A DNA stretch of 64,000 nucleotides, from positions 1-64,000 of the forward strand of contig DASVAW010000019.1 in NCBI GenBank assembly GCA_036376135.1. Reading direction: 5' to 3'. This DNA is from Candidatus Polarisedimenticolaceae bacterium (GTDB lineage Bacteria > Acidobacteriota > Polarisedimenticolia > Polarisedimenticolales > DASRJG01). A program made the position numbers and the translations under genes. Position 1 is the stretch's first letter. Each line of letters begins with the position of its first letter. The notes under the pieces are model-generated. The model searched no databases, had not been told where the DNA came from, and was given only the letters and a program-made list of their open reading frames with translations. Below, in pieces: positions 9,636 to 53,394 of this stretch.

Positions 9636-10357
9636 AGGCGATCGTCGTCATCCCGACTTACGACGAGGCCGCGGCGCTGCCGTCGCTCCTCGACAAGGTC
9701 CTCGAGACGGCGCCGGGCGTCGACGTTCTCGTCGTGGACGACGCATCCCCGGACGGAACCGGCGAGATCGCCGACTCGTACGCGGCGAGGACGCCCCGGG
9801 TCCGCGTCCTGCACCGCGCGGGGAAGCTCGGCCTGGGAAGCGCCTACCGGGACGGCTTCCGGGCCGCGCTCGACTCCGGTTACGAGGCGATCTTCGAGAT
9901 GGACGCCGACCACTCGCACAACCCGAAGTATCTTCCCGCGATGCTTCGCCGCCTCGAGGACGGCCTCGACGTCGTGATCGGCAGCCGCTATCGCGACGGC
10001 GTTCGGGTGGAGAACTGGCCGTTCCGCCGCCTGCTCCTCTCCCGATTCGCGAACTTCTACGTGAACTGGACCACCGGCCTTCCGATCGGGCTCGTCTCGG
10101 ACGCGACTTCGGGGTACCGGGGTTATCGCCGCATGGTCCTCGAAGCCCTCGACCTCGCGACCGTCCGCTCGAACGGCTACTCGTTCCAGATCGAGATGGC
10201 GTACCGGGCCTGGCGGCTCGGTTTCCGCGTCGCGGAGATGGGGATCACGTTCGAGGAGCATTACCTGAGCTCGTCGAAGATCTCGCTCGGCATCATCTGG
10301 GAGGCCATCTGGCGCACGCCGCTGCTGCGGCTGACCGCCCCCGGCCGTGACCGATGA
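9632..10357 (+). CDS. Dolichol-phosphate mannosyltransferase-like GT2 (polyprenyl-phosphate sugar synthase)
   Basis: A 241-residue GT2 enzyme closely resembling DPM1: VVIPTYDEAAALPSLLDKVL at the start, VVDDASPDGTGEIAD, FEMDADHSHNPKYLP with the DxD, and GSRYRDGVRVENWPFRR. DPM1-type enzymes transfer mannose or glucose from GDP/UDP-sugar to polyprenyl phosphate at the cytoplasmic membrane face. The resulting lipid-linked monosaccharides are donors for GT-C transferases, of which eleven candidates follow in this window. No C-terminal membrane segments are seen, so it is the short, soluble form. It starts with GTG overlapping the radical SAM stop, preceded by GGAGG-like sequence. Confidence 0.9.
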   Translation: MKAIVVIPTYDEAAALPSLLDKVLETAPGVDVLVVDDASPDGTGEIADSYAARTPRVRVLHRAGKLGLGSAYRDGFRAALDSGYEAIFEMDADHSHNPKYLPAMLRRLEDGLDVVIGSRYRDGVRVENWPFRRLLLSRFANFYVNWTTGLPIGLVSDATSGYRGYRRMVLEALDLATVRSNGYSFQIEMAYRAWRLGFRVAEMGITFEEHYLSSSKISLGIIWEAIWRTPLLRLTAPGRDR

Positions 10358-12030: not shown

Positions 12031-12956
12031 GCCGCGTGATCCTGATCGGGGGCAACGGCTTCCTCGGAACCGCCCTAACGTCGCGCCTTCGTGCGGCCGG
12101 GCGCGACTTCGTGGTCGCGTCCCGTTCGGGCACGGTCCCGGTGGACGTGGCGGAGGGGGTTCCGCAGGCGCTCGTCGCCGACGCCGACGCGGTCGTGAAC
12201 CTCGCGTCGATCCTCGGGCGGCCGCGGATCGACGAGGGGACGTACCGCGCGGTGAACGCGGAGGGGGCGCGCCGCGTCGCCGAGGCCTGCGCCGCGGCGG
12301 GGGTGCGCCGCCTCGTCCACGTGAGCACCACCGGGGTGCTCGGACCGACGGGGACGACGCCGCTCGACGAATCGGCGCCGCCTCGCCCCGAAACGCCGTA
12401 CGAGCGCACGAAGCTCGAGGGGGAGCGCGCCGCACGCGCGTTCGCGCGCACGGTCGTTCTCCGCCCCGGCCACGTGTACGGTCCCGGCGACCGCCACATG
12501 CTCCCGTTCTACCGGTCGATCGCGAAGGGGACCTTCCGCACGATCGGGGGCGGCCGCGCGCTGTGGCAGCCGGTGCACGTCGACGACGTCGCGCGCGCGA
12601 TCGAGCTCGCCCTCGACGCGCCGGGAACGGAGGGAGGGATCTTCCACGTCGCGGGCTCCGAACGCCTTTCCCTCGGCGCGTTCGCCGCCCGCATCGCCGC
12701 CGCCCTGGGGACGACGCTTCGAGGCCCGTCGATCCCGACCCCGCTCGCGTGGGGGCTCGGCGGGCTCCTCGAGGCGCTGATGCTCCCTTTCGGCTCCGAC
12801 CCGCCGTTGACCCGCGCGCGGGTCCGCACGATGACGACCCACCGCGTCTACGCGATCGAGCGCGCGCGCGCGTCGCTGGGGTGGGCGCCGCGCATCGGCC
12901 TCGACGACGGGCTCGCGGGCACCGTCGCGTGGTGCCGGGCGGGGGGGTGGGCGTGA
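12027..12956 (+). CDS. NAD-dependent epimerase/dehydratase (extended SDR)
   Basis: A 309-residue Rossmann-fold nucleotide-sugar epimerase/dehydratase-like protein. The N-terminal GGNGFLG dinucleotide motif, VNLASILGRP strand, HVSTTGVLGP and the YERTK catalytic pair (YxxxK) are all present. GHVYGPGD and WQPVHVDDVARAIELA match the substrate-binding part of extended SDRs. The sugar substrate is unknown. It starts with GTG overlapping the membrane transferase by GTGA and ends in another GTGA overlap. Confidence 0.88.
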   Translation: MSRVILIGGNGFLGTALTSRLRAAGRDFVVASRSGTVPVDVAEGVPQALVADADAVVNLASILGRPRIDEGTYRAVNAEGARRVAEACAAAGVRRLVHVSTTGVLGPTGTTPLDESAPPRPETPYERTKLEGERAARAFARTVVLRPGHVYGPGDRHMLPFYRSIAKGTFRTIGGGRALWQPVHVDDVARAIELALDAPGTEGGIFHVAGSERLSLGAFAARIAAALGTTLRGPSIPTPLAWGLGGLLEALMLPFGSDPPLTRARVRTMTTHRVYAIERARASLGWAPRIGLDDGLAGTVAWCRAGGWA

Positions 12957-13807
12957 GCGCGCTCCCCCGCGCGAGCGTCGTCGTCCCGGTGAAGGACGGC
13001 GGCGAAGGAATCGAGCGGCTCGTCCGCTCGTTGCAGGCGCTCGACTACCCGCGCGACCGGATCGAGATCCTCGTCGTCGACAACCGCTCGACCGATCGCA
13101 CCGCCGAGCGGGTCGCGGCCCTCGGCGCGGCGGTCGTGCGTGCGGACGACGTGGCGAGCAGCTATCACGCCCGCAATGTCGGCTGGCGCGCCGCTTCGGG
13201 GGAGTGGATCGCCTTCACCGACGCCGACTGCGTGGCCCCCGCGGGGTGGCTTCGCGGCCTTCTCGCGCCGCCGATCCCCCCCGCCGCCGGAGCGATCCTC
13301 GGCGAGGTCGTCGCCCTCGAGCTCGAGACCGCCGTGCAGCGGCTGACCGAGCGGTTCGGGATCATGAAGCACGCGGTCACGATGCCGCACAAGCGGCTCG
13401 CGTGCTTCTCGACCGCGAACGTCGCCATCCGACGCGACGTCCTCGAACGGCTCGGCGGCTTTCGCGAGGACGTCCGCTACTTCGGCGACATGGAGCTGTC
13501 CTGGCGGATGCAGCTCGAGCTCGGGGTCGAGCTCGTCTTCCGCCCCGAGGCGGAGATCCTCCACCGCCATCGGCGCACCTGGGCGGAGCTGTGGCGTCAC
13601 GGCGTCCAGCACGGCCGAGGGGTCGCTTTCATGAAACGGGCCTATCCCGACCGCTACGCCATCGAGGCGCGGGAACAGGCCGGCCGCGTTGGCGGCATCG
13701 TCCGAGCGCTCGCCAGGGACGGGGCGGCGGGCGCCATGTTCCAGGTCGTCTGGCTGGCCGGCATGACCGCGGGATACCTCCGCGGCCCGGCGTGGAGTCG
13801 TGAATGA
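12953..13807 (+). CDS. Family 2 glycosyltransferase
   Basis: A 284-residue GT2 enzyme. SVVVPVKDGGEGIERLVRSL starts the GT-A fold, VVDNRSTDRTAERV follows, AFTDADCVAPAGWL carries the DxD, and FGDMELSWRMQLELG contains the acidic catalytic-base motif. The last 30 residues are mildly hydrophobic and may contact the membrane. GTG start in a GTGA overlap; ATGA overlap with the FGE-like gene. Likely adds a sugar to a lipid-linked intermediate. Confidence 0.88.
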   Translation: MSALPRASVVVPVKDGGEGIERLVRSLQALDYPRDRIEILVVDNRSTDRTAERVAALGAAVVRADDVASSYHARNVGWRAASGEWIAFTDADCVAPAGWLRGLLAPPIPPAAGAILGEVVALELETAVQRLTERFGIMKHAVTMPHKRLACFSTANVAIRRDVLERLGGFREDVRYFGDMELSWRMQLELGVELVFRPEAEILHRHRRTWAELWRHGVQHGRGVAFMKRAYPDRYAIEAREQAGRVGGIVRALARDGAAGAMFQVVWLAGMTAGYLRGPAWSRE

Positions 13808-14730
13808 AGCGTGTCTTGTTGCTGCTCGTCGGCATTCCCCTGGGCCTCGTGATCGTGGTCGCCGCAGTGCTGTGGTCCAAGCAGAACCCGATCGCCGTGA
13901 CGATTCTCTACCCCGCGATCGAGCCGATCCTCCCGGAGATGGTGGAGATCCCGGCCGGTCCGTTCCTGCGCGGCAATCCGACGGGGACCGACTTCGAGAA
14001 GCCCGTGCGCACGATCCACGTCTCGGCGTTCCGGATCGGCAAACACGAGGTCACCAACGAGGAATGGAAACGCTTCGCGGACTCGACCGGTCGGATCTAC
14101 CCCGTGGAGCCGCTGCACAACGAAGTGCAGAACTACTTCCTGAACTACCCGAAGAGCCCGGTCGTCGAGATCTCGTGGGAGGACGCCGCGGCCTACTGCG
14201 TGTGGCTCTCGATGAAGACCGGGAGGGACTTCCACCTCCCCACCGAGGCGCAGTGGGAGAAGGCGGCGCGTGGCGGACTCGACGGGATGGAGTTCTTCTG
14301 GGGGAACGACCGGCGCGAGGGGATGGCCCAGCACGACGTCTCCTGGGACATCGGCCCGAAGGACGTCGGCTCGTTTCCGCCCAACGGATACGGGATGTAC
14401 GACGTCGCCGGCAACGTCAACGAGATGGTGAACGACTGGTACCGGGAGGACTACTTCGCGAGCTGTCCGGACCGCGACCCCGTGGGCCCGTCCGGTCTCT
14501 CCGCCTACCTGTCGCTGGTGAGCCCCTCCGGCACGCGTGCGCGACTCAAGGGCCGCTGCAAAGTGATCAAGGGCGGCTCGTACCGCGCGCCGTGGAGCTG
14601 GCGGGAGCGCAACCCGGACAACATGATCGAGACGCCGGTCCAGGTCGGCGCGCGCGAGTATGTGTACCAGGAGCCCTACACCCACTTCGACCTGGGCTTC
14701 CGCGTCGCGGAAGGCGGCGTGTGGAAGTAG
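13804..14730 (+). CDS. Formylglycine-generating-enzyme-like (SUMF1 fold) membrane-anchored protein lacking catalytic cysteines
   Basis: A 308-residue protein with one N-terminal hydrophobic helix (about residues 4-23) and an FGE-sulfatase domain facing the periplasm. Family motifs seen are MVEIPAGPFLRGNP, RIGKHEVTNEEWKRFA, PVVEISWEDAAAYCVWL, LPTEAQWEKAARGG, GYGMYDVAGNVNEMVNDWY, VIKGGSYRAPW and LGFRVAEGG. In true FGE two copper-binding cysteines follow the GGSY motif; here none do (GGSYRAPWSWRER). It is therefore probably a non-FGE member, comparable to GldJ/PvdO-like or other binding or modified-catalysis relatives. Last gene of the 7666-14730 operon. Confidence 0.85.
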   Translation: MKRVLLLLVGIPLGLVIVVAAVLWSKQNPIAVTILYPAIEPILPEMVEIPAGPFLRGNPTGTDFEKPVRTIHVSAFRIGKHEVTNEEWKRFADSTGRIYPVEPLHNEVQNYFLNYPKSPVVEISWEDAAAYCVWLSMKTGRDFHLPTEAQWEKAARGGLDGMEFFWGNDRREGMAQHDVSWDIGPKDVGSFPPNGYGMYDVAGNVNEMVNDWYREDYFASCPDRDPVGPSGLSAYLSLVSPSGTRARLKGRCKVIKGGSYRAPWSWRERNPDNMIETPVQVGAREYVYQEPYTHFDLGFRVAEGGVWK

Positions 14731-14751
14731 GGCTCCCGGCCCGGCTCGGGA

Positions 14752-15378
14752 TCAGAAGTTGAACCCGACGCCCGCGTACGGACCTTTGACCTTGAGGTCG
14801 ACGTCGCCGGCGAGCGGAAGCTCGAACGTGCGCGTCTTGTCGGTATACCCGGCGTAGATGTAGAAGAACGGCAGGGGCTTGATGCCGATCCCCGCGTCGA
14901 AGTCGGTCCCGGTGTCCCCCTTGAAGGTGCCGACGCCGGTGTCGATGTCTCCGAGAGCCGGGAGGTAGGCCGCGCGCGCGTAGAAGTAGACGATCTTCAC
15001 GCTGACCCGCCCCTCGGCGAACACGCGCGCGCTCGTCGAGGAATCGTCGGCGATCCCGAGCTGCTCGACTCCCGCGCCGAGCGCGAAGAAGTTGTTCCGC
15101 GAAGCCGAGATGAACTTGTACTTCACGCTCACGTTCGTGAAGTCGATTCCTTCCCCGCCGTCCGGGTCCGCCTTGTAATACGACGCGCCGACGACCCAGT
15201 GGTCGCCGAACCCGAGATCGACGAACCCGCCCGGCGCCTCGGAGTCGACCGCCTCGGTGTCGTCCTCGGTCTCGGAGACCCAGTAGACGACGCCGAGGTC
15301 GATGTCCACCGGACCCAGCGCCAGTGCGGGCGTACCCGCGGCGGCGACGATCGCCGCCGCCATCAGGAGCTTCTTCAT
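14752..15378 (-). CDS. Putative outer-membrane beta-barrel protein
   Basis: A 208-residue exported protein I cannot assign to a named family. It has a signal peptide (MKKLLMAAAIVAAAGTPALA). The rest alternates polar and hydrophobic residues in short strands (WVVGASYYKAD, VSVKYKFISA, VYFYARAAYLP, FFYIYAGYTD). It ends in Phe (GPYAGVGFNF), the usual C-terminal signature of outer-membrane barrels, here probably eight strands. GGGAG precedes the ATG. It sits between a convergent glycan operon and an upstream GT4 gene, so it may be unrelated to, or a surface partner of, glycan assembly. Confidence 0.72.
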   Translation of the reverse strand: MKKLLMAAAIVAAAGTPALALGPVDIDLGVVYWVSETEDDTEAVDSEAPGGFVDLGFGDHWVVGASYYKADPDGGEGIDFTNVSVKYKFISASRNNFFALGAGVEQLGIADDSSTSARVFAEGRVSVKIVYFYARAAYLPALGDIDTGVGTFKGDTGTDFDAGIGIKPLPFFYIYAGYTDKTRTFELPLAGDVDLKVKGPYAGVGFNF

Positions 15379-15447
15379 GATTCCGCTCTCCCTCGACGCC
15401 CGAAGTCTTGGTCTCGGAGGGGGACCGAGCCGCCCGGGCGGAGATCA

Positions 15448-15476
15448 CGGATAATGCCCCGCAGGCGAAGCGTCAA
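15448..15476 (-). promoter_or_regulatory. Possible promoter of the beta-barrel gene
   Basis: On the minus strand TTGACG (15476-15471) is followed after 17 bases by TATCCG, or after 16 by TTATCC. The -35 is good (5 of 6) and the -10 is weak. It overlaps the 3' end of the GT4 gene. Confidence 0.3.
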
Positions 15477-16651
15477 CTCGACAATTCCGCCACCTGCTTC
15501 GCGAGGTCGAACTCCCGCTCCACCCGGGCCCGCGCCGCCCGGGAGCGTCGGAGTCGTTCCTCGTGCGGCGCCGCGGCGAACGCCGCGATCGCCTCGGCGA
15601 CCCCGTCGGCGTCGGCGGCGCGGGCGAGCCAGCCCGTCGAACCGTCCACGAGCTCGGGAATCCCCGAGACGGGGGTCGCGATCAGGGGAACGCCGAGCGC
15701 GGCCGCCTCCACGAGGACGACCGGCAGTCCGTCCCGATCTCCGTCCTTGGCGACGATCGAGGCGAGAACCACGGCGTCGGCGGCGCGCATGCGCGCCAGG
15801 ACCTCGGTCGGAGGAAGGGCGCCGACGAAGCCGACGCGTCCGCGCAGCGCCGGCCGGTCGGCCGCTCGCCGCAGGTCGTCGAGGAGCGGTCCCTCGCCGA
15901 CGAAGTCGACTCCCGCCTCGCCCGCCGTCCCGGCCAGCCGCTCGAGCGCCTCGAGGAGCACCGCATGCCCTTTCTTCGGGACCAGCCGTGCCACGCAAAG
16001 CAGGCGTGCGGGGCGCGACGGGACCGTCGCGGCACGGAATGCGAACTGCGCGAGGTCGAGCCCGCAGCGCAGCACCCGCACGCGACCCGCCTCGATCCCC
16101 AGCCGGCGCGCGCGCAACAGCAGCCAGGCCTCGTTCGCCGTGGACACGGTGTAGACGCGCTCGGCGGCGGCGAGGTTCGGCCCCAGCAGGAAGGGGTCCT
16201 GGTAGAGGTCGTACGCGTGCGCGGTCACGCGGTACGGGAGCCCCGTCAACGCGGCGGTATAGCGGCAAAGCGCCGCCGCGTCGTTGGCGAAGTGGGCGTG
16301 GAGCCTGGCCGTGTCGCCGGGGAGCAGGGCCGCGGCACGTCGGGCGTAGAACCCGAGCCGGAGGGCGCGCGCCCACTTCCGGGGCCGGAGACCCAGGGAC
16401 AGGAGGTCGGAGGCGAGCGCCCGGGCCCACGCCCCGGCGTTCGGGACGCGGGTGGAGGGGACGCTTCCGCGGTGCGCCAGCACCTCGCCGTCGAGGACCC
16501 CGCTCGCCGGATGTTGCGCGGGGAACGCCGACAGGACCGTAACGGGCACCCGCGCGGCGACCAGACCTTCCACCTCGCGCACGACGAACGTCTCCGAAAG
16601 CTCGGGATAGGTTCTCAGGACGTAAGCGACGCGACGATTCTCGTGATTCAC
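15473..16651 (-). CDS. Family 4 glycosyltransferase
   Basis: A 392-residue GT-B enzyme of the GT4 (WecG/WbaZ-like retaining) family. N-terminal acceptor lobe: AYVLRTYPELSETFVVREV. C-terminal nucleotide lobe: RLLCVARLVPKKGHAVLLEA, VDFVGEGPLLDDLR, GFVGALPPTEVLARMRAAD and the EX7E-type motif DGLPVVLVEAAALGVP. The start is ambiguous. A TTG at 16675 also opens the frame, but GTG at 16651 gives the normal N-terminus and lies eight bases after a TAAGCT hexamer. Transcribed divergently from the B12-radical SAM operon. Confidence 0.88.
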   Translation of the reverse strand: MNHENRRVAYVLRTYPELSETFVVREVEGLVAARVPVTVLSAFPAQHPASGVLDGEVLAHRGSVPSTRVPNAGAWARALASDLLSLGLRPRKWARALRLGFYARRAAALLPGDTARLHAHFANDAAALCRYTAALTGLPYRVTAHAYDLYQDPFLLGPNLAAAERVYTVSTANEAWLLLRARRLGIEAGRVRVLRCGLDLAQFAFRAATVPSRPARLLCVARLVPKKGHAVLLEALERLAGTAGEAGVDFVGEGPLLDDLRRAADRPALRGRVGFVGALPPTEVLARMRAADAVVLASIVAKDGDRDGLPVVLVEAAALGVPLIATPVSGIPELVDGSTGWLARAADADGVAEAIAAFAAAPHEERLRRSRAARARVEREFDLAKQVAELSS

Positions 16652-16659
16652 GGGTACGC

Positions 16660-16665
16660 AGCTTA
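16660..16665 (-). promoter_or_regulatory. Candidate -10 element of the GT4 gene
   Basis: Reads TAAGCT (TANNNT class) on the minus strand and ends eight bases before the GTG at 16651. No -35 match. The same hexamer precedes the GTG at 61311 by six bases. Confidence 0.3.
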
Positions 16666-16679
16666 CCCCATGCAAAAGG

Positions 16680-16708
16680 TTGACACGACGGAGCTTACCG
16701 GGAATATT
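16680..16708 (+). promoter_or_regulatory. Strong sigma70-type promoter of the second glycan operon (leaderless)
   Basis: Perfect TTGACA (16680-16685), a 17-base spacer and AATATT (16703-16708, 4 of 6). The -10 ends eight bases before the ATG at 16717 and no ribosome site is present, so the message should begin at or within a base or two of the start codon. Confidence 0.7.
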
Positions 16709-16716
16709 GTTCCGCC

Positions 16717-18144
16717 ATGAACCCCTCGGTCCGGAAGGTCCTTCTCCTCAACCCCCCCGGGGACCGGCTCTACATCCGGGACCAGTTCTGCTCGCACGTG
16801 TCGAAGGGCACGTATTACTGGCAACCGCTCGACCTGCTGATGATCTCCGCGCGGCTCCACGCCGCGGGGTACGAGCTCGCGGTCGTCGACGCGATCGCCG
16901 AGCGGCTCGCCGCGGAAGAGGCGCTGCGCCGCGTGGAGGCGTTCGCCCCCGACGCCATCGTGTTCCTGACGGGGAGCGACTCCTTCCTCGACGACATCCG
17001 CTTCGTGGAGGAAGCGAAGCGACGCGGCGTGCGGCTCGCGGTCGCGATCGGCGACGTCGTCCGCGAGAAGGGCGAGCGGCTGCTCGTGCAGCACCCCGCG
17101 ATGGACGCGTGCATGACGGACTTCGTCACGCACGGGCTCGAAGCGTTCCTGCAGGGGCGAGCCGACGAGGCGGCGAACATGATCGTGCGCGACGCGGACG
17201 GCACGGTGCGCAAGATCGCGGGCGCCAAGGTGCCTCGGACCTTCACGATCCCCACGCCGCCCTACGCGCTGTTCCCCCTCGACCGCTACCGGATGCCGTA
17301 CAACCGGTACCACCCGTACGCGACGATCATCACCTCGACCTGGTGCCCCTACGGTTGCAGCTACTGTCCGTTCTCGCGCACGCCCTATCGGATGCGCGAG
17401 CCGGAGGACGTGCTCCGCAACCTCGAGGACGTCCGCGCGATGGGGATCCGGCAACTCCACATCGCCGACTGGACCTTCGCGGTCAACAAGGCGCAGGCCA
17501 AGACGATCGTCCAGGGGATGATCGCGCGGGAGTTCGGATTCACGTGGTCGTGCCTGAGCCGCGTCGACCTCATGGACCGCGAGCTCATGGACCTGATGAA
17601 ACGCGCGGGATGCGACCTGATCGAGTTCGGCGTCGAGTCGGGGAACCAGCCGATGCTCGATCGCTACGACAAGGGGACGACCGTCGAGGAGATCCGGCGC
17701 GCGTTCGGGTGGGCCCGCGAGCTCGACATCCCGACCCTCGCCACGTTCGTCCTGGGCCTCCCGGGCGAGACCCGCGAGACGTTGCAGCAGACCCTCGACC
17801 TCGCTCTGGAGATCGAGCCGACGTTCTGCTCGTTCAACGCGGCGAGTCCGCGCATGGGGACCGAGCTCCGCCACGACATGCTCGAGCAGGGGCTGATCCA
17901 GGACTCCGACGACGCGGTGCTCGACTCGTCGCGGTCGCTCCCGGTCTTCTCCACGGAGACGCTGTCCGCGGAGGAGGTCCAGCGCTTCCGCCAGCGGGCG
18001 ATCCGCTCGTTCTACCTGCGCCCCTCGTACCTCGCGCGCCGCGTCAAGCGGCTCGGGTCGTGGGTCGAGCTGCAGAACCATCTCGGCAACGGCGTCTCGC
18101 TGATCTGGCAGACGCTGCAGTCCGCGAGGGCACGTCGGACCTGA
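16717..18144 (+). CDS. B12-binding-type radical SAM protein
   Basis: A 475-residue enzyme of the cobalamin-binding radical SAM class (BchE/hopanoid-methylase-like architecture). N-terminal Rossmann-like part: VLLLNPPGDRLY and LMISARLHAAGYELAVVDA; the usual DxHxxG corrinoid motif is not evident, so cobalamin binding is unsure. The radical SAM domain has CPYGCSYC (CxxxCxxC) near residue 210, then IADWTFAVNK and LIEFGVESGNQPML. The C-terminal helical region resembles that of family members. It is the first gene of an eight-gene glycosyltransferase operon. Possible roles include methylating or rearranging a sugar or lipid; the substrate is not visible. Confidence 0.86.
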   Translation: MNPSVRKVLLLNPPGDRLYIRDQFCSHVSKGTYYWQPLDLLMISARLHAAGYELAVVDAIAERLAAEEALRRVEAFAPDAIVFLTGSDSFLDDIRFVEEAKRRGVRLAVAIGDVVREKGERLLVQHPAMDACMTDFVTHGLEAFLQGRADEAANMIVRDADGTVRKIAGAKVPRTFTIPTPPYALFPLDRYRMPYNRYHPYATIITSTWCPYGCSYCPFSRTPYRMREPEDVLRNLEDVRAMGIRQLHIADWTFAVNKAQAKTIVQGMIAREFGFTWSCLSRVDLMDRELMDLMKRAGCDLIEFGVESGNQPMLDRYDKGTTVEEIRRAFGWARELDIPTLATFVLGLPGETRETLQQTLDLALEIEPTFCSFNAASPRMGTELRHDMLEQGLIQDSDDAVLDSSRSLPVFSTETLSAEEVQRFRQRAIRSFYLRPSYLARRVKRLGSWVELQNHLGNGVSLIWQTLQSARARRT

Positions 18145-19382
18145 GCGAGACACGTCACGTCAACCGCTCCGTCCCGGCGCTCGCCGCCATGGCGGCACTG
18201 GCTGCACTGGCGCTGCTCGTCGTCCGGTCGTGGCGGATCGACTATCCGTATTCGATCGACTTCCAGACCTACTGGCTCGCGGGACATCGCCTCGCCGCCG
18301 GGGAGGCGGATCGCCTGTTCGACGCCGGCGGCGGACCGGCCTCGGGGATCCCGCTCGAGCTCGCCGCGCACGAGTTCAAGAACCTCCCGATCGTCGCCGT
18401 CCCGTTCGCCCCGCTCGCGTCGCTCCCCTACCTCGAGGCGAAGCGGGTCTTCTGGTGGATCGGCCTCGCCGCCCTCGTCGCGGGAGGGACGCTCTCGGGG
18501 CTCGGCGGGCTCTCCCCCCGGTTCGGGAGCCCCGCCACCCGGGTGAGCGTCGGGATCGCGGTGACGGCGCTGCTGTCCCCGGCCCACTCCGCGCTCCGCC
18601 ACGGGCAGACGACCCCGCTCGTGATGCTGGCGCTGGCCGCCTGGCTGTACGGGCGCGATCGCCGCCCCGCGTGGGCGGGGGGGGCCCTGGGCCTCGCGTG
18701 CCTCGTGAAGTTCCCGCCCCTGGCACTGCTGGCCCTCGACGCGGTGCGCGCCCGGCTGAAGGCGACCGCGGCCGCGGTCGCGACGATCCTGGTCGCGGTC
18801 ACCCTGTCGGTCGTCGCATTCGGCGTCCCGCTGCACCGCGCCTACCTCGCCCACATCGGAGGGAACGCGGGCACGGTGATGACCGGGCACAACAACCAGT
18901 CGATCGTCGCGATCCTCGCCCGACTGGTCGTCCCGGTCCCCGTGCTGGACTGGACCCCGCGTCCACTCCCCGACGGGATCGGCGCGGGGGCGGTGATCGT
19001 GACGCTGCTCCTGTTCGCGCTCGCCGCGCGGACGATCCTCCAGGCCGGTCGCACCCCGCCGGACGAGCTCCTCGAGGTCCCGCTGGTCGCCTCGCTGGGC
19101 ATCGTCGCCCTCCCCGTCGCGTGGGACCACTACGTGCTCCTCGCGGGGCCGGCGATCCTGGCGCTGCTCGGCGGCCTCCACGCGAAGGGGCTGCTCCTTC
19201 GGCCGCGATTCCGGCTCGCCTTCGCGGCGACCTTCGTCGTGCTGGCCCTCCCCACACCCACCGCGTGGCTCGACGGCTCGGAGCCGGCCGGCTTCCTGCG
19301 GGCGCTCGCCCTCTCCGGGGACGGGCTCGCCCTCCTCGGGGTCTTCGGCACGGCGATCGTCGCCTCGCGGGTGCGCCGGTGA
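18141..19382 (+). CDS. GT87-like (DUF2029) membrane mannosyltransferase family protein
   Basis: Multi-spanning GT-C protein of the GT87/DUF2029 type. The family pattern is clear: SIDFQTYWLAGHRLAAGE, FKNLPIVAVPFAPLASLPY, ALRHGQTTPLVMLALAAWL and GLACLVKFPPLALLALDA. Such enzymes use polyprenyl-phosphate mannose in actinobacteria. The start is unusual. The only canonical start nearby is ATG 18189, which would cut the first transmembrane helix (VPALAAMAALAALALLVV). A CTG at 18141 forms a four-base CTGA overlap with the preceding stop and restores the helix, so I place the start there. GAGGG lies 10 bases upstream of the CTG. Confidence 0.8.
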   Translation: MSETRHVNRSVPALAAMAALAALALLVVRSWRIDYPYSIDFQTYWLAGHRLAAGEADRLFDAGGGPASGIPLELAAHEFKNLPIVAVPFAPLASLPYLEAKRVFWWIGLAALVAGGTLSGLGGLSPRFGSPATRVSVGIAVTALLSPAHSALRHGQTTPLVMLALAAWLYGRDRRPAWAGGALGLACLVKFPPLALLALDAVRARLKATAAAVATILVAVTLSVVAFGVPLHRAYLAHIGGNAGTVMTGHNNQSIVAILARLVVPVPVLDWTPRPLPDGIGAGAVIVTLLLFALAARTILQAGRTPPDELLEVPLVASLGIVALPVAWDHYVLLAGPAILALLGGLHAKGLLLRPRFRLAFAATFVVLALPTPTAWLDGSEPAGFLRALALSGDGLALLGVFGTAIVASRVRR

Positions 19383-21013
19383 GGTGGGCGCTCGCGCTCA
19401 ACGCGACGATCGTCCTTTGCTCGGTCGCGGCACCGGTCGAGGGCGTACCGGGCCCGCTGCGGATGCTCGCCGCGGGACTGCTCGTGCTCGTCCTCCCCGG
19501 ACTCGGCTGGCTGGGCGCCTTCCGCCGCATCGTCCTCGACCCGACGCGGCTGGCCCTCGCGACCGTCGGGATCTCCGCGGCGAGCAGCGTGCTCGGCTTC
19601 GTCCTGCTCGTCGGCACCGCCCGGCCGCCCTCGCCGGGCGGGCTCCTGCTCTGGACGCTGCTCGTGGCCAACGCGGGACTGTGGTCGGTGCGGGGCCCCG
19701 GCCGCTTCGACGACCGCGCGCGATGGCGCGACCTCGCGATCGTCGCCGGGGCGGCCTTCTCGATCTTCTCGCTCGCGGCGCTCCACCTGGTGCCGCCCCT
19801 CGAGGACCACGACATGGAGGTCCGAGGGACGGCGTGGGGTCTCGCGACCGAGCTGAAGCCCTACTTCCAGACGAACCGCGAGGTCTACCTCCCGCTCGCC
19901 CATCCGGTCCTCCTCCACGGCTTCGTGGCGCAGTCGCTCGCGTGGACCGGCGAGATCGAGACGACTCGCGGGTCGTACGAGGCGGCCAAGCGCGCGGAAG
20001 CGGCCCGAGGGTCCGGCGCCCCGTTCGACGGGATGGCCGCGTGGCGCGCGGACTACGAAGCGATGGTGCGGCGTCCCGCGCTCGCCGGGACGCGCGCCCC
20101 GGGCGTCCTCCTCGCCGCGCTCGCCGCGGCGCTCCTGTTCGACCTCGTGGCGCGGCTGGGCGCGTCCGTCCCCGCCGCGTGGGGGGCGGTCGCCTGCTGG
20201 CTGACCTTCCCCGAGACGATCGTCCGCTCCTCGTACGCCGGCTACTTCGCCCCGGCGGTCTTCGCGATGGCCGTCGCCGCGGGGTCGTTCGGCCCGCGGG
20301 ACGAAGACGACGCGCGCCGGCCGATCCGCCAGTACGGCCCGGCTGCGGCCGCGGGGTTCCTGTGCGCGTGGCTCGACCACAAGACGATCGTCTTCGCGGG
20401 CGCGGTGACCGCGTGGTTCGCGTGGCGCTTCGTCGCGACGCGCAGGCTCGACCTTCGCGCCGCGGGGTTGTTCGCCGGGTTCTCGGCGGGAACGCTCGCC
20501 TGGTGGGCGTACGGCCTCTCCGTCGACGTGCACGCGTTCGTGCAGGACCACCTGCGGATGCACTTCGCGCACCGGCTGCTCCTCGACGATCTGCGCCTGT
20601 TTCCAGGCGGCCAGCGGTACTCCCCCTCGATGCTCGAGTTGTGGGGCCAGTTCTCGTCGCACACCGGGTGGCTGTTCCTCCCGGTCGCGATCGTCGCGGC
20701 GTTCCTGTGGCTGCGCCCGCGCGGAGACGACGGGGACGCGCGTCGCACCGTGCTCGCCGTCTGGGCGCTCGGCCACCTCATCGCCTTCACGCTCACCGAC
20801 TGGCGGCAGACCAAGCACCTCATGAACGGCCTGCTGCCGCTGGTTGCGGCCGCCTTCGTCGCGATCTCCGAAACGCGGCACGTCGCCGTCCGCCGCGCGG
20901 CGGTCGGCGCGCTCGTGCTCGCGTTCCTCTGGAACGTGGCCACGGACGTGCGCCTTTTCCGCGACTTCGGCTCGCTCGTCATCCTCGGGGCGAGCGACGT
21001 GGATGGCTGGTGA
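19379..21013 (+). CDS. Multi-spanning membrane protein, probable GT-C glycosyltransferase
   Basis: A 544-residue membrane protein with about ten hydrophobic segments. After three or four helices comes the acidic loop LEDHDMEVRGTAW (residues 141-153), the placement of the GT-C catalytic acid. A long soluble loop (about 170-225) precedes further helices. No named family is recognised with certainty. GTG start in a GTGA overlap with the GT87-like gene and GTGA overlap with the next GT2, so it is made together with them. It could also be a polymerase- or ligase-like protein. Confidence 0.7.
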   Translation: MRWALALNATIVLCSVAAPVEGVPGPLRMLAAGLLVLVLPGLGWLGAFRRIVLDPTRLALATVGISAASSVLGFVLLVGTARPPSPGGLLLWTLLVANAGLWSVRGPGRFDDRARWRDLAIVAGAAFSIFSLAALHLVPPLEDHDMEVRGTAWGLATELKPYFQTNREVYLPLAHPVLLHGFVAQSLAWTGEIETTRGSYEAAKRAEAARGSGAPFDGMAAWRADYEAMVRRPALAGTRAPGVLLAALAAALLFDLVARLGASVPAAWGAVACWLTFPETIVRSSYAGYFAPAVFAMAVAAGSFGPRDEDDARRPIRQYGPAAAAGFLCAWLDHKTIVFAGAVTAWFAWRFVATRRLDLRAAGLFAGFSAGTLAWWAYGLSVDVHAFVQDHLRMHFAHRLLLDDLRLFPGGQRYSPSMLELWGQFSSHTGWLFLPVAIVAAFLWLRPRGDDGDARRTVLAVWALGHLIAFTLTDWRQTKHLMNGLLPLVAAAFVAISETRHVAVRRAAVGALVLAFLWNVATDVRLFRDFGSLVILGASDVDGW

Positions 21014-21921
21014 ACGGCGCCCCGCGGTTCTCCGTCCTCGTCCCGACGCGGGGCCGCCCCGACCTCGCCGCGGCGTGCGTGGCCTCGGTCCTCGCGCAGG
21101 ACCACCCGTCGTTCGAGCTCGTGCTCTCCGACCAGTCCGACGACGACCGGACCTTCGCGGCGGCGACCGCGGCGGCGGCGGGGAACCCCCGCCTGACGAT
21201 CGTCCGGGCTCCCGGACGCGGGCGGAGCCGCGCGCTCAACGCCGGCCTTCCCGCCTGTCGCGGCGCGTGGATCGTGATGACCGACGACGACTGCGAGCCG
21301 GAGCCGGGATGGCTCCTCGCCCTCGACCGCGAGGCCGCGCGGGCCCCCGAGCGCGCGGCCATCGTCGGCCGGGTGGTTCCGGGTCCGGTCGAGCCGGGGA
21401 AAGCGGATCCGCCGGCGACCCTCGACGAGCCCGAACCCCGCGACTGGCGAGGCCGCGTCGACCGGGACCTCGTTTACCCGAACTTCGCGATCCCGCGCGC
21501 GGCCTTCGCCGAGCTCGGCCGGTTCGACGTCCGCCTCGGCGTCGGGACTCCCATCCCGGGGGGCGAGGACAACGACTTCGGCTATCGCCTGCTCCGCTCG
21601 GGGTACGCGCTCCTCTACCGCCCAGGCCCCACCGTCGTCCATCGTGCCTGGCGCAGCCACGAGGAGCGTCTCGCCCTCAAGCGGGCCTACGGGGTCGGCC
21701 AGGGGGGCTTCTACGCGAAGCACCTCGCCCGCGGCGATGCTTTCGTGGCATGGCGGCTCGCCCGCGATCTCTTCCGGAACGCCCGGGCGGCCGGCGGCGC
21801 GGCGATCCGGGGAAACCGGACGGGCGCGCGCGGGCATCTCGCGTATCTTTCGGGGTTGGGGACGGGTCTCTGGCGCATGGGGATCCTGCTCGCCCGCAGG
21901 GCGCCGGCGGAGGACCGTTGA
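21010..21921 (+). CDS. Family 2 glycosyltransferase (DDDC/GGED type)
   Basis: A 303-residue GT2 enzyme. SVLVPTRGRPDLAAACVASV opens the fold, LVLSDQSDDDRTF follows, VMTDDDCEPEPGWLLAL carries the DxD-type motif and IPGGEDNDFGYRLLRSGY the catalytic-base motif. The C-terminal 80 residues are basic and helical. Both ends overlap their neighbours by four bases (GTGA, TTGA). The next gene encodes a second enzyme with the same TDDDC/GGED style motifs, suggesting an old tandem duplication. Confidence 0.88.
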   Translation: MNGAPRFSVLVPTRGRPDLAAACVASVLAQDHPSFELVLSDQSDDDRTFAAATAAAAGNPRLTIVRAPGRGRSRALNAGLPACRGAWIVMTDDDCEPEPGWLLALDREAARAPERAAIVGRVVPGPVEPGKADPPATLDEPEPRDWRGRVDRDLVYPNFAIPRAAFAELGRFDVRLGVGTPIPGGEDNDFGYRLLRSGYALLYRPGPTVVHRAWRSHEERLALKRAYGVGQGGFYAKHLARGDAFVAWRLARDLFRNARAAGGAAIRGNRTGARGHLAYLSGLGTGLWRMGILLARRAPAEDR

Positions 21922-23078
21922 GGGGACCGGGAGGAGCGGTCGCGGAGATCGACCTGGCGGCGGACGATCCGCTTCCCGAAGTCCTCGTGTACGCGCCCCT
22001 CGCCTACGTGCTCGTCCGCGACGCGGGCCGGCCGGTCGCGCGCCTGGTCCTCGAAGGGGACACGCCGCGCGACCGCGCGACCCTGTTCGCCCGGGCGCGC
22101 GAGGTCGCGAGCGTGCTTCCCGCGCCGCACGCCGGCGGGGTCGTCGTCGAGCCGGGGGCCGTCAGCGTGATCGTCGCGACGCGCGATCGGCCGCACGACC
22201 TCGAGGCGTGCCTCCTCGCGCTCTCGCAGCTCGCGCCCGGCCCCGGCGAGGTCGTCGTCGCCGACTCGGCCTCGGCCGCCCCGGCCCTCGTCGCGATGAC
22301 GGCGCGCAAGTACGGCGCCCGCTACGTGCGCTGCCGCCGTCCGGGGCTGTCGATCGCCCGGAACACGGGAGCCCGCGCGGCGCGCAGCGCGATCCTCGCG
22401 TTCCTCGACGACGACTGCCGCGTCGAGGCGGGCTGGCTGCGCGCGTTGTGCGAGGGGTTCGGGGCCGACGGCGGCGACGTCGTCACCGGCCAGCTCCTTC
22501 CCTCCGAGCTGGAGACCGAGGCGCAGCAGCTGTTCCTCCACTACAGCCACATGGACCGTCGCGGCTTCGTGCCCCGCCGGTTCACGCGCGACAGCCGCGA
22601 GTCGAAGCACTGGCCGATCGACGCGTGGCGGATGGGCAGCGGCGGGAACCTCGCGGTCCGGTCCGACGCGTACTGGCAGCTCGGCGGGTTCCGCGCCGAC
22701 CTCGGGCTCGGGACCCCCGCCCTCGGCGGCGAGGATCTGTTCTTCCTCTGGTCGGTCGTGGTCGACGGCGGCACCGTCGTGTACCGCCCCGACGCCCTCG
22801 CCTGGCACCGGCATCACCGGGACGCGGCGGCGCTCGAGCGCGTGATGTTCGGGTACGGCTGCGGCCACTCGGCGTTCATCGCCGCCGCGCGCTCCGCAGG
22901 CGCGGCGAGAGGTCGCGTGGCGCTCTACCGCGCCTCGTTCTGGTACGACCGCTTCAAGCGGCTCGGGCGCTCGCTCGCCCGTCGCTGGCCCGTGCCCGCC
23001 CACCTCGTCCTTCGCGAGATGGCGGGGTCCCTCGCGGGACGCCACCGCTTCCGGCGCGCGCATCGCGAGGTCGCATGA
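21918..23078 (+). CDS. Family 2 glycosyltransferase with extra N-terminal domain
   Basis: A 386-residue protein read from a TTG start that forms a TTGA overlap with the upstream gene. About 85 residues (EIDLAADDPLPEVLVYAPLA, then VLVRDAGRPVARLVLEG) precede the GT2 domain. The latter has SVIVATRDRPHDLEACLLAL, VVADSASAAPAL, LAFLDDDCRVEAGWLRAL and ALGGEDLFFLWSVVVDGG. The N-terminal part resembles the leader domain of some mycofactocin- and polysaccharide-type GT2 enzymes, but I cannot name it. Likely acts on a lipid-linked glycan. Confidence 0.85.
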   Translation: MRGPGGAVAEIDLAADDPLPEVLVYAPLAYVLVRDAGRPVARLVLEGDTPRDRATLFARAREVASVLPAPHAGGVVVEPGAVSVIVATRDRPHDLEACLLALSQLAPGPGEVVVADSASAAPALVAMTARKYGARYVRCRRPGLSIARNTGARAARSAILAFLDDDCRVEAGWLRALCEGFGADGGDVVTGQLLPSELETEAQQLFLHYSHMDRRGFVPRRFTRDSRESKHWPIDAWRMGSGGNLAVRSDAYWQLGGFRADLGLGTPALGGEDLFFLWSVVVDGGTVVYRPDALAWHRHHRDAAALERVMFGYGCGHSAFIAAARSAGAARGRVALYRASFWYDRFKRLGRSLARRWPVPAHLVLREMAGSLAGRHRFRRAHREVA

Positions 23079-23854
23079 GCGGCATCCCGGTGCTGATGTA
23101 CCACTGGGTCAACGACGATCTGGGGAACCACCTCCGCCTGTACGGCGTCGCCCCGGGGGCCTTCGCATCGCAGATGCGCTCGCTCTCGTCGCGCGGTCGC
23201 CGCGCGGGGACGCTCGACGATCTGCTCGCGCACGTCCGCGGGTCGACGCCCGCCCCCGACGGGACGATCGTCCTGACCTTCGACGACGGCTACCGCGACA
23301 ACGTCGAGAACGCCGGCCCGGTCCTCGAGGCGCTCGGCTGGACGGCGACGATCTTCGTCGTCACCGACCGGGCGGGAGGGGTCAACGCCTGGGACGCGCG
23401 CTACGGCGACACGCCGAGACCGATCCTCTCCTGGGACGAGATGCGCGCGCTCGACGGGAAGGTCTTCCGATTCGAGCCGCACTCGCGCACGCACCGCCCG
23501 CTCCCGACCCTCGACGACGCGCAGGCGGCGGACGAGATCGGGGGATCCAAGCGCCGCCTCGAAGACGAGCTCGGCAGGGCTTCGCGGGTCTTCTCGTACC
23601 CGCACGGCGAGTTCAGCCGGCGCGTCGAGGGGTACGTGCGCGCGGCGGGGTTCGAGGCGGCGGTCACCGACCTCCAGGGCCTCAACACCGCCGGGACCGA
23701 CCCGCTGCGCCTGAAGCGCACGATGATCACCTCGCGCGATGTCGCCGCGACCTACTTCATCAAGTCGTCGACCGGGTACGGCGTCGCGGGGATGTGGGAC
23801 GAAGGCCTCCGCCGGCTCGCCGGCCGTCCCCCGCGCTGGGAGCGGGCGCGGTGA
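23075..23854 (+). CDS. Polysaccharide deacetylase family protein (NodB fold, CE4)
   Basis: A 259-residue metal-dependent carbohydrate deacetylase-like protein. Motif 1 TFDDGYRDNVENAG (D70, D71) and motif 2 HSRTHRPLP (HxxxH) supply the metal triad. FSYPHGEFS is motif 3-like. The opening IPVLMYHWVNDD is typical of the family. No signal peptide is present, so it may act in the cytoplasm on lipid-linked N-acetylated sugars. Coupled by ATGA and GTGA overlaps within the 16717-26288 operon. Confidence 0.88.
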   Translation: MSGIPVLMYHWVNDDLGNHLRLYGVAPGAFASQMRSLSSRGRRAGTLDDLLAHVRGSTPAPDGTIVLTFDDGYRDNVENAGPVLEALGWTATIFVVTDRAGGVNAWDARYGDTPRPILSWDEMRALDGKVFRFEPHSRTHRPLPTLDDAQAADEIGGSKRRLEDELGRASRVFSYPHGEFSRRVEGYVRAAGFEAAVTDLQGLNTAGTDPLRLKRTMITSRDVAATYFIKSSTGYGVAGMWDEGLRRLAGRPPRWERAR

Positions 23855-33601: not shown

Positions 33602-34665
33602 CGGCTCCTCGGCTCCCCCTCGGGCCCGAGCCGCGCCGCGTCCTCGTCACGGGGAGCGCGGGGTATTTCGGCGGAGTCCTCGCGACGTGGCTCGCCGACC
33701 GAAGGATCAAGGTCGTGGGCCTCGATCGTCTCCTTCCCCCGGAGCCCGATCCCCGGATCGTCACGGTCCGCGCGGATCTTCGGGACGCCGACGCCGTCCT
33801 CGACGCGTTCGCGAAGGAGGGGCCGTTCGACGCGGTTTTCCACTGCGCGGCGCTCATGGGGCACGAGAAACCGGACCCCGAGGATCTCTGGGACTCGAAC
33901 GTGGAGGGGACCCGCAACGTCGCCCTCGCCGCGATCGCGCACGGCGTCCGCAAGCTCGTCTACACCTCGACGATCTGCGTTTTCGGGCGCGAATATCCGC
34001 ACCTCGTGACGGAGGACGAGCCGGTCTGCCCCATCGAGCCCTACGGGAAGTCGAAGCTCGAAGGGGAGCGGGTGCTCCAGTCGCTGGCCGACCGCCTCGA
34101 TGCCGACGCCATCCGGTGCCCGACGATCGTCTCGGCGGGACGCCTCGGCCTGCTTTCGATCCTCTTCGAGTTCGTGGAGGAGGGTCGCCGCGTCTACCTC
34201 GTGGGCGACGGCTCCAACCGTTACGGTTTCGTGTACGCCCCCGATCTCTGCGAGGCGTGCCTGCTGGCGTCGCGGGCGCCCGGATCCCACGTTTACCACG
34301 TGGGAAGCGATCGGGTGAAGACGCTGCGCGAGGTCTACCAGGCGGTGATCGACGAGGCCGGGTCGCGGTCGCGCCTGTTCAGCCTCCCCGAGGGCCCCGC
34401 GATCGGAACGTTGAAGCTGCTCTTCAAGCTCGGCCTCTCCCCGCTCGGCCCCTACCACGCGAGGCTGATCAACGGCACCTTCGTCTTCGACACGACGCGC
34501 CTGCGGTCCCAACTCGGCTGGAAGCCGACCCTGGCCAACGACGAGATGCTGCGGGAGGCGTACCGCCATTACGCCGAACACAGGCCGGGAAGGGCCGAGG
34601 GGCTCGCGGCCCACCGCCAGACGGCGAAGATGGGCGTCCTGAGACTCGTGAAGTGGCTGTCCTGA
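33598..34665 (+). CDS. NAD-dependent epimerase/dehydratase (extended SDR)
   Basis: A 355-residue sugar-nucleotide SDR. VLVTGSAGYFGGVLATWLAD has the GxxGxxG motif, VFHCAALMGHEKPDPE and NVEGTRNVALAAI follow, KLVYTSTICVFG supplies Ser/Thr and YGKSK the YxxxK pair. GSNRYGFVYAPDLCEACLLA matches the substrate region. Likely a nucleotide-sugar 4-epimerase or dehydratase. GTG start in a GTGA overlap; ends in an overlap with the next membrane protein. Confidence 0.87.
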   Translation: MTAPRLPLGPEPRRVLVTGSAGYFGGVLATWLADRRIKVVGLDRLLPPEPDPRIVTVRADLRDADAVLDAFAKEGPFDAVFHCAALMGHEKPDPEDLWDSNVEGTRNVALAAIAHGVRKLVYTSTICVFGREYPHLVTEDEPVCPIEPYGKSKLEGERVLQSLADRLDADAIRCPTIVSAGRLGLLSILFEFVEEGRRVYLVGDGSNRYGFVYAPDLCEACLLASRAPGSHVYHVGSDRVKTLREVYQAVIDEAGSRSRLFSLPEGPAIGTLKLLFKLGLSPLGPYHARLINGTFVFDTTRLRSQLGWKPTLANDEMLREAYRHYAEHRPGRAEGLAAHRQTAKMGVLRLVKWLS

Positions 34666-36128
34666 GGCTCGCCTTCGCCACGCTGCTCGCCCTGTCGCTC
34701 GCCGCCTTCGCCGCGATCGCCGGGCGTACCCTCCTCTACCCGCACGAGGTCGTCGTCTCCGAAGGGGCGGTCCGCCTCGCGACGGAGACCTGGGCGCACG
34801 GCCGGGACCTGTGGGCGCCCGACCGCCTCACGGACGCCCCGTTCGCGATCGCGCACTACACCCCGCTCTACTACCTGTTCACGCGCGCCGTCCAGACGGT
34901 GACCGGCGAGGGGTTCCTCGCGGGGCGGCTCGTCTCCGTCCTCTTCACGGTCCTCACGGCCTGCGCGGCGGGCTGGATCGCGCGCCGCGAGACCGGACGG
35001 ACCTGGGCCGGGTTCATCGCGGGCTCGGTCTGGTTGTCCTTCTACGCGGTCGCGTTCTGGGGGACCGCCCACCGGGTGGACGCGCCGGGGATCTTCTTCG
35101 AGGCGGTGGGCATCGGCACGTATCTCGCCGCGCGGCGGGCGGGACGGGACGGGTACGGCGCGATCCCGTGGTTCGTCGCGGCCTGGTGCGTCAAGCAGGT
35201 GATGTTCGTCGGTCTCGTCGCGGTGCTCCTGGACGTCGCGCTCGACCGCAACCGCGGCCCCCTTCGCGCCGCGCGGTACGCGGCCCTGGCGTGGGGCCCG
35301 ATCCTCGCGCTGTTCGGCCTGTGGACCTGGTGGAGCGACGGCGGATTCTGGAGCGCGACGGTCCTGGGGACGGTCAGCAAGGACGCGGACACCCCGTGGG
35401 TCGTCGTCTCCAACGCCGAGCGTTTCTTCGGCTCGCCGTGGAGCCTCGCCACGTTCCTCGCGGGAATCGCGGCGGCGGTGTTCTTCCCGCGCAGGAACTT
35501 CCTGGGCGTCTACCTTCTCACCGGAATCGTCCTGGCCATCGTCACCGACGCGAACTTCCCCCGCTTCTTCCCGCCGGCGCTCGCCGCGGCGATCCTCGTC
35601 GCGATCCTGCTCGTGGACCTCGAGGCGCACCCGAAGGCGAACGAGTTCGCGCTGGCCTCGCTCTCCCTCGTGTTGTTCGCCCACCTGGGCTGGGAGATGC
35701 GCCCGCTCTTCCGCGAGCGCGCGTTGAACCTCACCCCGTCCAACACGCGCCTCGACGCCGCGGCGTGGCTTCGCGCGAAGGTGCCGGAGGGGCGACCGGT
35801 CCTCGCCCAGGACGTCGGCATGTTGCTTTCGGCCGAACGCCCGGTCACCGTCGCCGACCCGCTCGTCTACTCGATCCTCGTCGGCAACGGCGCGTGGGAT
35901 CCCGAGGTCCTCGCCAAGGGGATTCGCGAGGGGGCCTACGGCGCCGTCGTGCTGAACCGTCCCCTCGAGGAGCTCAACGACCGCGAGTGGACGACCCTCT
36001 GGATCTCGGGCCCCGCGCGGCGCGCGCTCGCCGAGCGCTACCGCCTCCTCGACACGTTCACGATCGGCCAGTCGTGGGTCTTCCTCGAGCCGACCCGTTA
36101 CCTCTACGTTCCGAAGGAGGCCCCGTGA
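34653..36128 (+). CDS. Multi-spanning GT-C type membrane glycosyltransferase
   Basis: A 491-residue membrane protein with about ten helices. First loop: YPHEVVVSEGAVRLATETW with E37 as the acidic position, then FAIAHYTPLYYLFTRAVQ, a common GT-C second motif. A short C-terminal soluble part has LDAAAWLRAKVPEGRPVLAQ. Two starts are possible: GTG at 34653 (13-base overlap with the epimerase) or CTG at 34662, which would form a four-base CTGA overlap. I give the canonical GTG. Confidence 0.76.
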   Translation: MAVLRLAFATLLALSLAAFAAIAGRTLLYPHEVVVSEGAVRLATETWAHGRDLWAPDRLTDAPFAIAHYTPLYYLFTRAVQTVTGEGFLAGRLVSVLFTVLTACAAGWIARRETGRTWAGFIAGSVWLSFYAVAFWGTAHRVDAPGIFFEAVGIGTYLAARRAGRDGYGAIPWFVAAWCVKQVMFVGLVAVLLDVALDRNRGPLRAARYAALAWGPILALFGLWTWWSDGGFWSATVLGTVSKDADTPWVVVSNAERFFGSPWSLATFLAGIAAAVFFPRRNFLGVYLLTGIVLAIVTDANFPRFFPPALAAAILVAILLVDLEAHPKANEFALASLSLVLFAHLGWEMRPLFRERALNLTPSNTRLDAAAWLRAKVPEGRPVLAQDVGMLLSAERPVTVADPLVYSILVGNGAWDPEVLAKGIREGAYGAVVLNRPLEELNDREWTTLWISGPARRALAERYRLLDTFTIGQSWVFLEPTRYLYVPKEAP

Positions 36129-52959: not shown

Positions 52960-53394
52960 CTATCCGCAACCCTCGATCATCTCCAGCACCCGCTCCACCG
53001 CCCCGTGCAGCGCCTCGGACGTCCCGTCGGACAACGTCTCTGCGAACCCGAAGTCGCGCCCGGGGATCTCGAGGAGGACCACCCGCTCCGGGCGGCGCCC
53101 GTACAGCGCCTCGCAGAGCGCGAGCAGGGCGCCGGGCGAGCCGACGTGCGTCGACGTCGAGGTCGGATCCGCGACGACGTCGGAGAGCGTCAGCTCGCGT
53201 GCGCTCGCCGACGCGTCCACGAATACGGCGACGTCGGCCTCGGCCATGCGCTCGGCGATCTCGGGAACGAGCTGCTGCACCGCGATCACGTCGGCGAGGG
53301 GCCGCAGGCGCGCGACCCGCTCGGCGACGCGGATGCCCGCCGCGTCGTCCCCGCGGGTTACGTTCCCGATCCCGACGACGAGCGCGGGCCTCAG
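52960..53394 (-). CDS. hoxW: Hydrogenase maturation protease (HoxW/HyaD family)
   Basis: A 144-residue nickel-dependent endopeptidase that removes the C-terminal tail of the hydrogenase large subunit. [17 protein letters not shown] carries the first acidic ligand, FVDAS the second and [12 protein letters not shown] the His. No ATG, GTG or TTG lies at a sensible position. The family's normal N-terminus is reached only from a CTG at 53394, which makes a four-base CTGA overlap with the hoxH stop. Upstream the frame is open but is hoxH sequence. The protease-large-subunit pairing is standard. Confidence 0.85.

Follow-up and report, generated by a model that had tools for sequence, protein, structure and literature searches.

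A probable CTG start codon in the stop/start overlap before a GT87 gene, and an apparent recurrence of CTGA starts in its genome

Judged from sequence, the translation of a GT87-family gene very probably begins at CTG 18141, which overlaps the stop codon of the preceding radical SAM gene. Beyond this gene, CTG appears to be a minor start codon in stop/start overlaps that recurs in the source genome and in at least two relatives, including at miaA and rsfS. This wider CTGA pattern is more interesting than the single GT87 gene. CTG starts (rare) and NTGA overlaps are already known, and what is new is the recurrence and conservation of CTG in stop/start overlaps. A literature search, which covered few subscription journals and many sources only in part, returned no report of CTGA being used repeatedly, or kept between genomes, as a start in overlaps. 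The window, by which we mean the whole stretch of DNA analysed, comprises positions 1-64000 of contig C19. The genome has 4.38 Mb in 179 contigs and is 97.6% complete, and the G+C content is about 72%. The features are listed in Table 1.

The sequence was read directly at the junction and has CTGA at bases 18141-18144, where a C precedes the TGA of the radical SAM ORF. ATG 18189 and the GT87 ORF, which ends at 19382, lie in the frame of CTG 18141. The TG of this CTG is common with the upstream TGA, which makes a four-base NTGA overlap where N is C and not A, G or T. GT87 glycosyltransferases (PF09594) transfer a sugar from a polyprenyl-phosphate sugar, an activity predicted here by the family match. 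An earlier note on this DNA had stated that no canonical start lies near the upstream stop, and this was borne out: within 200 nt of CTG 18141 the only in-frame canonical codons are GTG 18060 (-81) and ATG 18189 (+48), and between 18063 and 18188 the GT87 frame contains no ATG, GTG or TTG. GTG 18060, which would require an overlap of 85 bases, is a canonical alternative absent from that note. The note had also counted 23 other NTGA junctions in the window; the pattern is present, and the number given by the ORF caller is 24 (8 ATGA, 15 GTGA, 1 TTGA). Besides these 24 in-phase junctions, the 42 tandem pairs of the window include 5 in-phase CTGA junctions. On the + strand, long gene runs linked by ATGA, GTGA or TTGA overlaps extend over 7672-25317, and the part from 8550 to 25317 has 11 canonical NTGA junctions and one CTGA.

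Table 1. Coordinates of the GT87 junction and of other candidate CTG-start genes (plain numbers are window positions; the prefixes L131 and L105 denote other stretches of the genome)
Feature	Position	Strand	Evidence
Radical SAM gene (Radical_SAM, B12-binding-like)	16717..18144	+	Pfam Radical_SAM E 1.5e-27; B12-binding match slightly below cut-off; G020 orthologue 72% identical
GTG, closest upstream in-frame canonical codon (rival start)	18060..18062	+	anti-SD -3.2
GAGGG, Shine-Dalgarno-like site, 10 bases before CTG	18126..18130	+	anti-SD duplex -6.4 kcal/mol over 18 bases upstream of start
CTG, proposed GT87 start codon	18141..18143	+	in frame with GT87; homologous place is ATG in G020
TGA, radical SAM stop, overlaps CTG as CTGA	18142..18144	+	sequence
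GT87-family membrane glycosyltransferase gene (predicted)	18141..19382	+	PF09594 8e-20, 72 bits vs gathering cut-off 25
ATG, first downstream in-frame canonical codon (rival start), inside first hydrophobic stretch	18189..18191	+	anti-SD -1.7; residue 17 of predicted helix 2-30
Membrane protein, CTG 34662 or GTG 34653	34662..36128	+	PMT_2-like match slightly below cut-off; only GTG at -9 within 200 nt
Hydrogenase maturation protease, candidate CTG 53394-53392 in CTGA overlap	52960..53394	-	TIGR00072 1.8e-20, 73 bits, cut-off 47; residue 5 = profile position 1
MiaA	L131:3168	-	TIGR00174, 243 bits, cut-off 149; protein residue 6 = profile position 2
RsfS	L105:8679	+	TIGR00090, 109 bits, cut-off 57; residue 6 = profile position 3
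HpnA-like epimerase			TIGR03466, below equivalog cut-off; residue 4 = profile position 3

Pairing to the ribosome was computed with the anti-Shine-Dalgarno octamer, which was assumed to be canonical; a motif search of the sampled stretches found no 16S rRNA. CTG 18141 has a Shine-Dalgarno-like site typical of the NTGA starts of the genome (-6.4 kcal/mol), and ATG 18189 (-1.7 kcal/mol) and GTG 18060 (-3.2 kcal/mol) are without one. The mean pairing is -6.43 kcal/mol at ATGA junctions (n=107) and -5.80 at GTGA junctions (n=139). At random intragenic sites it is -3.81 (n=554) and at out-of-phase CTGA sites -3.62 (n=122), and 13% of the latter attain -6.4 kcal/mol. Compared with the remaining 58 in-phase CTGA sites, pairing is better at the five strongest CTG candidates (p=0.01), namely GT87, miaA, rsfS, the protease and the epimerase.

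A start of GT87 at ATG 18189, 45 bases past the stop, would mean that the CTGA arose by chance or is what remains of an ATGA since lost, and we consider this unlikely. ATG is generally a far stronger start than CTG according to PMC5622118, and some other in-phase CTGA junctions of this genome clearly use a later ATG. The coding signal of the 15 codons from CTG to ATG 18189 is also weak, with a score of +0.69 in the GT87 frame and of -8.1 and -9.4 in the other two. Among real first-15-codon stretches (n=279), +0.69 ranks at the 20th percentile; 4 of 61 true spacers attain it. With a likelihood ratio of about 1.5 the score is nearly uninformative, and it was set aside as stand-alone evidence because it is too weak. 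The poor pairing upstream speaks against ATG 18189, as does the predicted structure. The earlier claim that this ATG would truncate the first membrane helix, which the CTG would restore, agrees with an AlphaFold2 model (5-sequence alignment; mean pLDDT 62, pTM 0.66): its first helix, of low local confidence, spans residues 2-30, so that Met17 (ATG 18189) would lie in mid-helix. A start at the ATG leaves 12 hydrophobic residues before an Arg, whereas the orthologue in genome G020 has a full helix there.

G020 belongs to another family of the class. Its GT87 protein is 57% identical over residues 12-79 and adjoins a radical SAM gene that ends in the same last residues (SARARRT-stop). The junction in G020 is ATGA, and thus its GT87 ATG occupies exactly the homologous position of CTG 18141. 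The N-terminus reads MKRGAGPLLLALAAALFACSLLAVRSWQID in G020 and LSETRHVNRSVPALAAMAALAALALLVVRSWRID when translated from CTG 18141. The two were aligned back from the shared RSW, and Met-18189 then faces an Ala within the helix of G020, so this Met is not conserved. The alignment of homologous N-termini that had been suggested earlier has the G020 start upstream of the position of Met-18189. The two junctions are alike in gene order, in the upstream last residues and in the placing of the start in the overlap; they differ in that G020 has ATGA and not CTGA and an N-terminus that is four residues shorter, with its start 12 residues before the one opposite Met-18189. Over its first 11 residues, the protein read from CTG 18141 has no clear similarity to that of G020, the sole close orthologue, whose contig stops 75 codons into the GT87 gene.

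The same orthologue bears on GTG 18060, which is canonical and in frame, as the start of GT87. G020 has no canonical codon within 200 nt upstream of its ATGA, the pairing at GTG 18060 is weak, and 27 hydrophilic residues would be put ahead of the helix; a start there is extremely improbable. CTG 18141 is the start that we prefer. Among 41 genomes of the class (the source included), the GT87 orthologues besides its own were the close one in G020 and a distant one in G016. Radical SAM homologues numbered 14 in 396 genomes of the phylum, its own included, and of the other 13 only that of G020 is adjoined by GT87. A further contig search for syntenic GT87 orthologues gave one distant homologue. 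In G172 (L013:2869), the gene after a distantly related radical SAM homologue (36% identity) is a different membrane-protein-like ORF, joined to it by an ATGA overlap.

CTGA junctions were surveyed in a sample of 1,443,672 bases (101 stretches including the window), in which an ORF caller based on coding statistics found 1172 genes and 738 tandem pairs. Since C is the commonest base before TGA (122 of 207 out-of-phase tandem junctions), CTGA alone is weak evidence and in-phase CTGA often arises by chance. A phase test, which asked whether CTGA is in phase in more than one third of cases, gave 5 of 6 in the window but 63 of 185 in the larger sample. It was dropped as evidence because the latter is no excess and many of these junctions are CTGATG or have other canonical starts. 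The 63 in-phase CTGA junctions comprise 14 CTGATG, 37 with another canonical start within -60..+45 and 12 without, among them the GT87 junction; at least 6 of the 12 seem to begin later, at ATG or GTG.

A coding-gap test was then scored as positive when no canonical start lay within -60..+45 and the stretch to the next canonical start was clearly coding (LLR>4). Excluded were 18 of the 738 pairs, in-phase TGA pairs with the frame closed at the junction. Positives amounted to 4 of the 63 in-phase CTGA junctions and to 0 of 657 others (Fisher p=5.4e-5), the latter made up of 122 out-of-phase CTGA junctions, 279 in-phase and 85 out-of-phase junctions with another base before TGA, and 171 junctions at TAG or TAA. 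The contrast was stable over the windows and thresholds tried. GT87 itself fails the test. A gene-wise scan of 1073 of the 1172 genes (99 whose frame is open to the stretch edge were dropped) found 10 genes without a canonical start near the coding signal. Seven of them lie outside CTGA overlaps (L033, L035, L048, L071, L101, L104, L118) and may represent gene fragments, frameshifts, a coding signal that sets in late or non-canonical starts of another kind. At L071:7833 and L035:10048, both on the + strand and outside CTGA overlaps, the frame lacks a canonical start from the preceding in-frame stop until over 100 bases of coding signal have passed; assembly errors, frameshifts or a different non-canonical start are possible at these two loci.

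The four positives of the coding-gap test are miaA, rsfS, the hydrogenase maturation protease and the HpnA-like epimerase. With numbering from the CTG, the first residue matched by the family profile is residue 4, 5 or 6. Downstream of the CTG, miaA, the protease and the epimerase reach their next canonical start after 81 to 114 bases, and rsfS has none within 200 bases; for the protease, which lies in the window, the nearest canonical starts are at -93 and +105. Starting at the next canonical codon would presumably cost miaA its P-loop, the protease its catalytic GIGN motif and the epimerase its Rossmann motif. Coding statistics and family profiles thus predict that no fewer than four other genes of the genome require a CTG start at CTGA. 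Two further plausible cases, L109 and L113, have signal-peptide-like N-termini. The junction at 34662 is ambiguous because of the GTG nine bases upstream. The upstream genes of the epimerase homologues are not syntenic, and these homologues therefore back the position of the N-terminus only.

Two of the four genes were found at CTGA in relatives as well. In G005 (same order, another family, single contig; L175:12684, - strand), rsfS is at CTGA behind the same upstream gene as in the source genome. This gene, which we take to be nadD, ends RYIRERKLYREETSR in G005 and RYIRERKLYRLEAAR in the source genome. No canonical start can serve rsfS of G005, because its frame is open only from -105 and the first canonical start comes at +102. 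A conserved non-canonical start of rsfS in two families is therefore possible. In G001 (same family, another genus), miaA is also at CTGA (L143:19877, - strand). From -123 to +200 the sole canonical codon of its frame is a GTG at -120, and upstream the frame stays open, over 41 aa, up to the stretch edge. In a third genome of the class, G021, miaA is perhaps at CTGA too, as a CTGA-to-P-loop match (C278:8931, - strand) coincides with the place of miaA. This search is noisy, with matches in 205 of 396 genomes, because the P-loop pattern is common to many proteins, and the G021 match is the only one used. A membrane-protein ORF of G001 at CTGA (L153:11186, - strand) has no canonical start from the preceding stop (-150) to +123.

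The coding-gap test was positive at 1 of 21 in-phase CTGA junctions and 1 of 170 others (L149) in a 385 kb sample of G001, and at 1 of 12 and 0 of 149, respectively, in a 400 kb sample of G005. In unrelated high-GC controls, Azospirillum gave 0 of 10 in-phase CTGA positives and Streptomyces 1 of 13, a borderline case (L193) in which the following ATG seems to be the true start. Lineage specificity is unproven by these controls because the counts (10 and 13) are too small.

The recurrence of CTGA also bears on a further possibility, that the base called at 18141 is wrong through a sequencing or consensus error and that the true junction reads ATGA or GTGA. The genome is a draft of 179 contigs and the G020 orthologue has an A at this base. 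An error is nevertheless very unlikely, as four further genes (miaA, rsfS, the protease and the epimerase) show the CTGA pattern too, and it is found in other genomes, at miaA in G001 and at rsfS in the single-contig G005. The points against CTG 18141 as the start are that CUG is a poor start elsewhere, that C before TGA is common by chance, that at least 6 of the 12 junctions without a near canonical start seem to begin later, that the coding score is nearly uninformative, that GT87 fails the coding-gap test and that there is a single close orthologue, with no clear similarity over the first 11 residues.

In the mechanism that we propose, ribosomes would finish the radical SAM gene at UGA 18142-18144, and GAGGG 18126-18130 would help the terminating ribosomes to re-initiate on the overlapping CUG with fMet-tRNA. 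From the geometry of the overlap, a two-base shift of the ribosome at the UGA should suffice to bring the CUG into the P site. The route would be the same as at the ATGA, GTGA and TTGA four-base overlaps that dominate the genome. The bases and their phase, the homologous ATGA in G020, the Shine-Dalgarno-like site and the profile-matched N-termini of the other genes are seen directly in the sequences, and we infer the decoding of CUG by fMet-tRNA, this re-initiation route and a protein with 16 residues before Met-18189. An altered initiator tRNA was considered as a cause and is unsupported, its anticodon stem being GGG/CCC. IF3 is present (L099, G000:C146), and its C-domain reads GRDLRRPENG; the corresponding residues in two of the best solved matches are GREVAHPELG and GREMAHQQIG. 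This variant is a lead for altered start-codon selection. Unusual starts have reportedly been seen by N-terminomics in Deinococcus deserti.

A wider reading, which we offer tentatively and with rather less than even confidence, is that throughout the class CUG is a regular fourth NUG start, used only at CUGA overlaps, to which a terminating ribosome brings initiation. Selection would retain it at certain genes: at rsfS in two families of an order, and at miaA in two genera and perhaps in a third family. Its role there might be to attenuate translation-related genes. Termination-reinitiation, perhaps with the unusual IF3, would relax the proofreading of the start codon. If CUG is tolerated only at overlaps, the junctions would be natural tests of whether re-initiating ribosomes escape the proofreading obeyed by de novo initiation, and a CTG kept at rsfS in two families would suggest selection for weak initiation there. 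CTG is not normally among the starts that gene finders consider, so such genes would be annotated too short; the annotated miaA, protease and epimerase would lack their P-loop, catalytic motif and Rossmann motif, respectively.

CUG is a weak start in the literature. AUG to CUG changes affected 2 of 61,358 ancestral AUG starts (PMC5622118). In mycobacteria, CTG shows no enrichment among starts, even where a Shine-Dalgarno site is present (PMC4633059). N-terminomics of 688 annotated starts in E. coli gave 628 ATG, 50 GTG and 10 TTG (PMC13245402). Four-base overlaps are more frequent in prokaryotes than those of any other length, and coupling requires genes that overlap or lie very close together (PMC10666635). 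The GT87 case resembles the ATGA and GTGA overlaps treated there, which involve termination-reinitiation in unidirectional pairs, in its TG-sharing geometry, tandem genes and likely coupling. It differs in that its probable start is CTG, whereas the passages of that paper name ATGA and GTGA only, and its text has 0 occurrences of CTGA. Compared with CUG as a noncanonical bacterial start (PMC11497404; PMC5622118), the GT87 start would likewise have a mismatch at the first codon position. In PMC11497404, swapping an anticodon-stem pair of the initiator tRNA led to less discrimination against CUG, whereas here CUG would act at several genes, within overlaps and with a canonical anticodon stem of the initiator tRNA.
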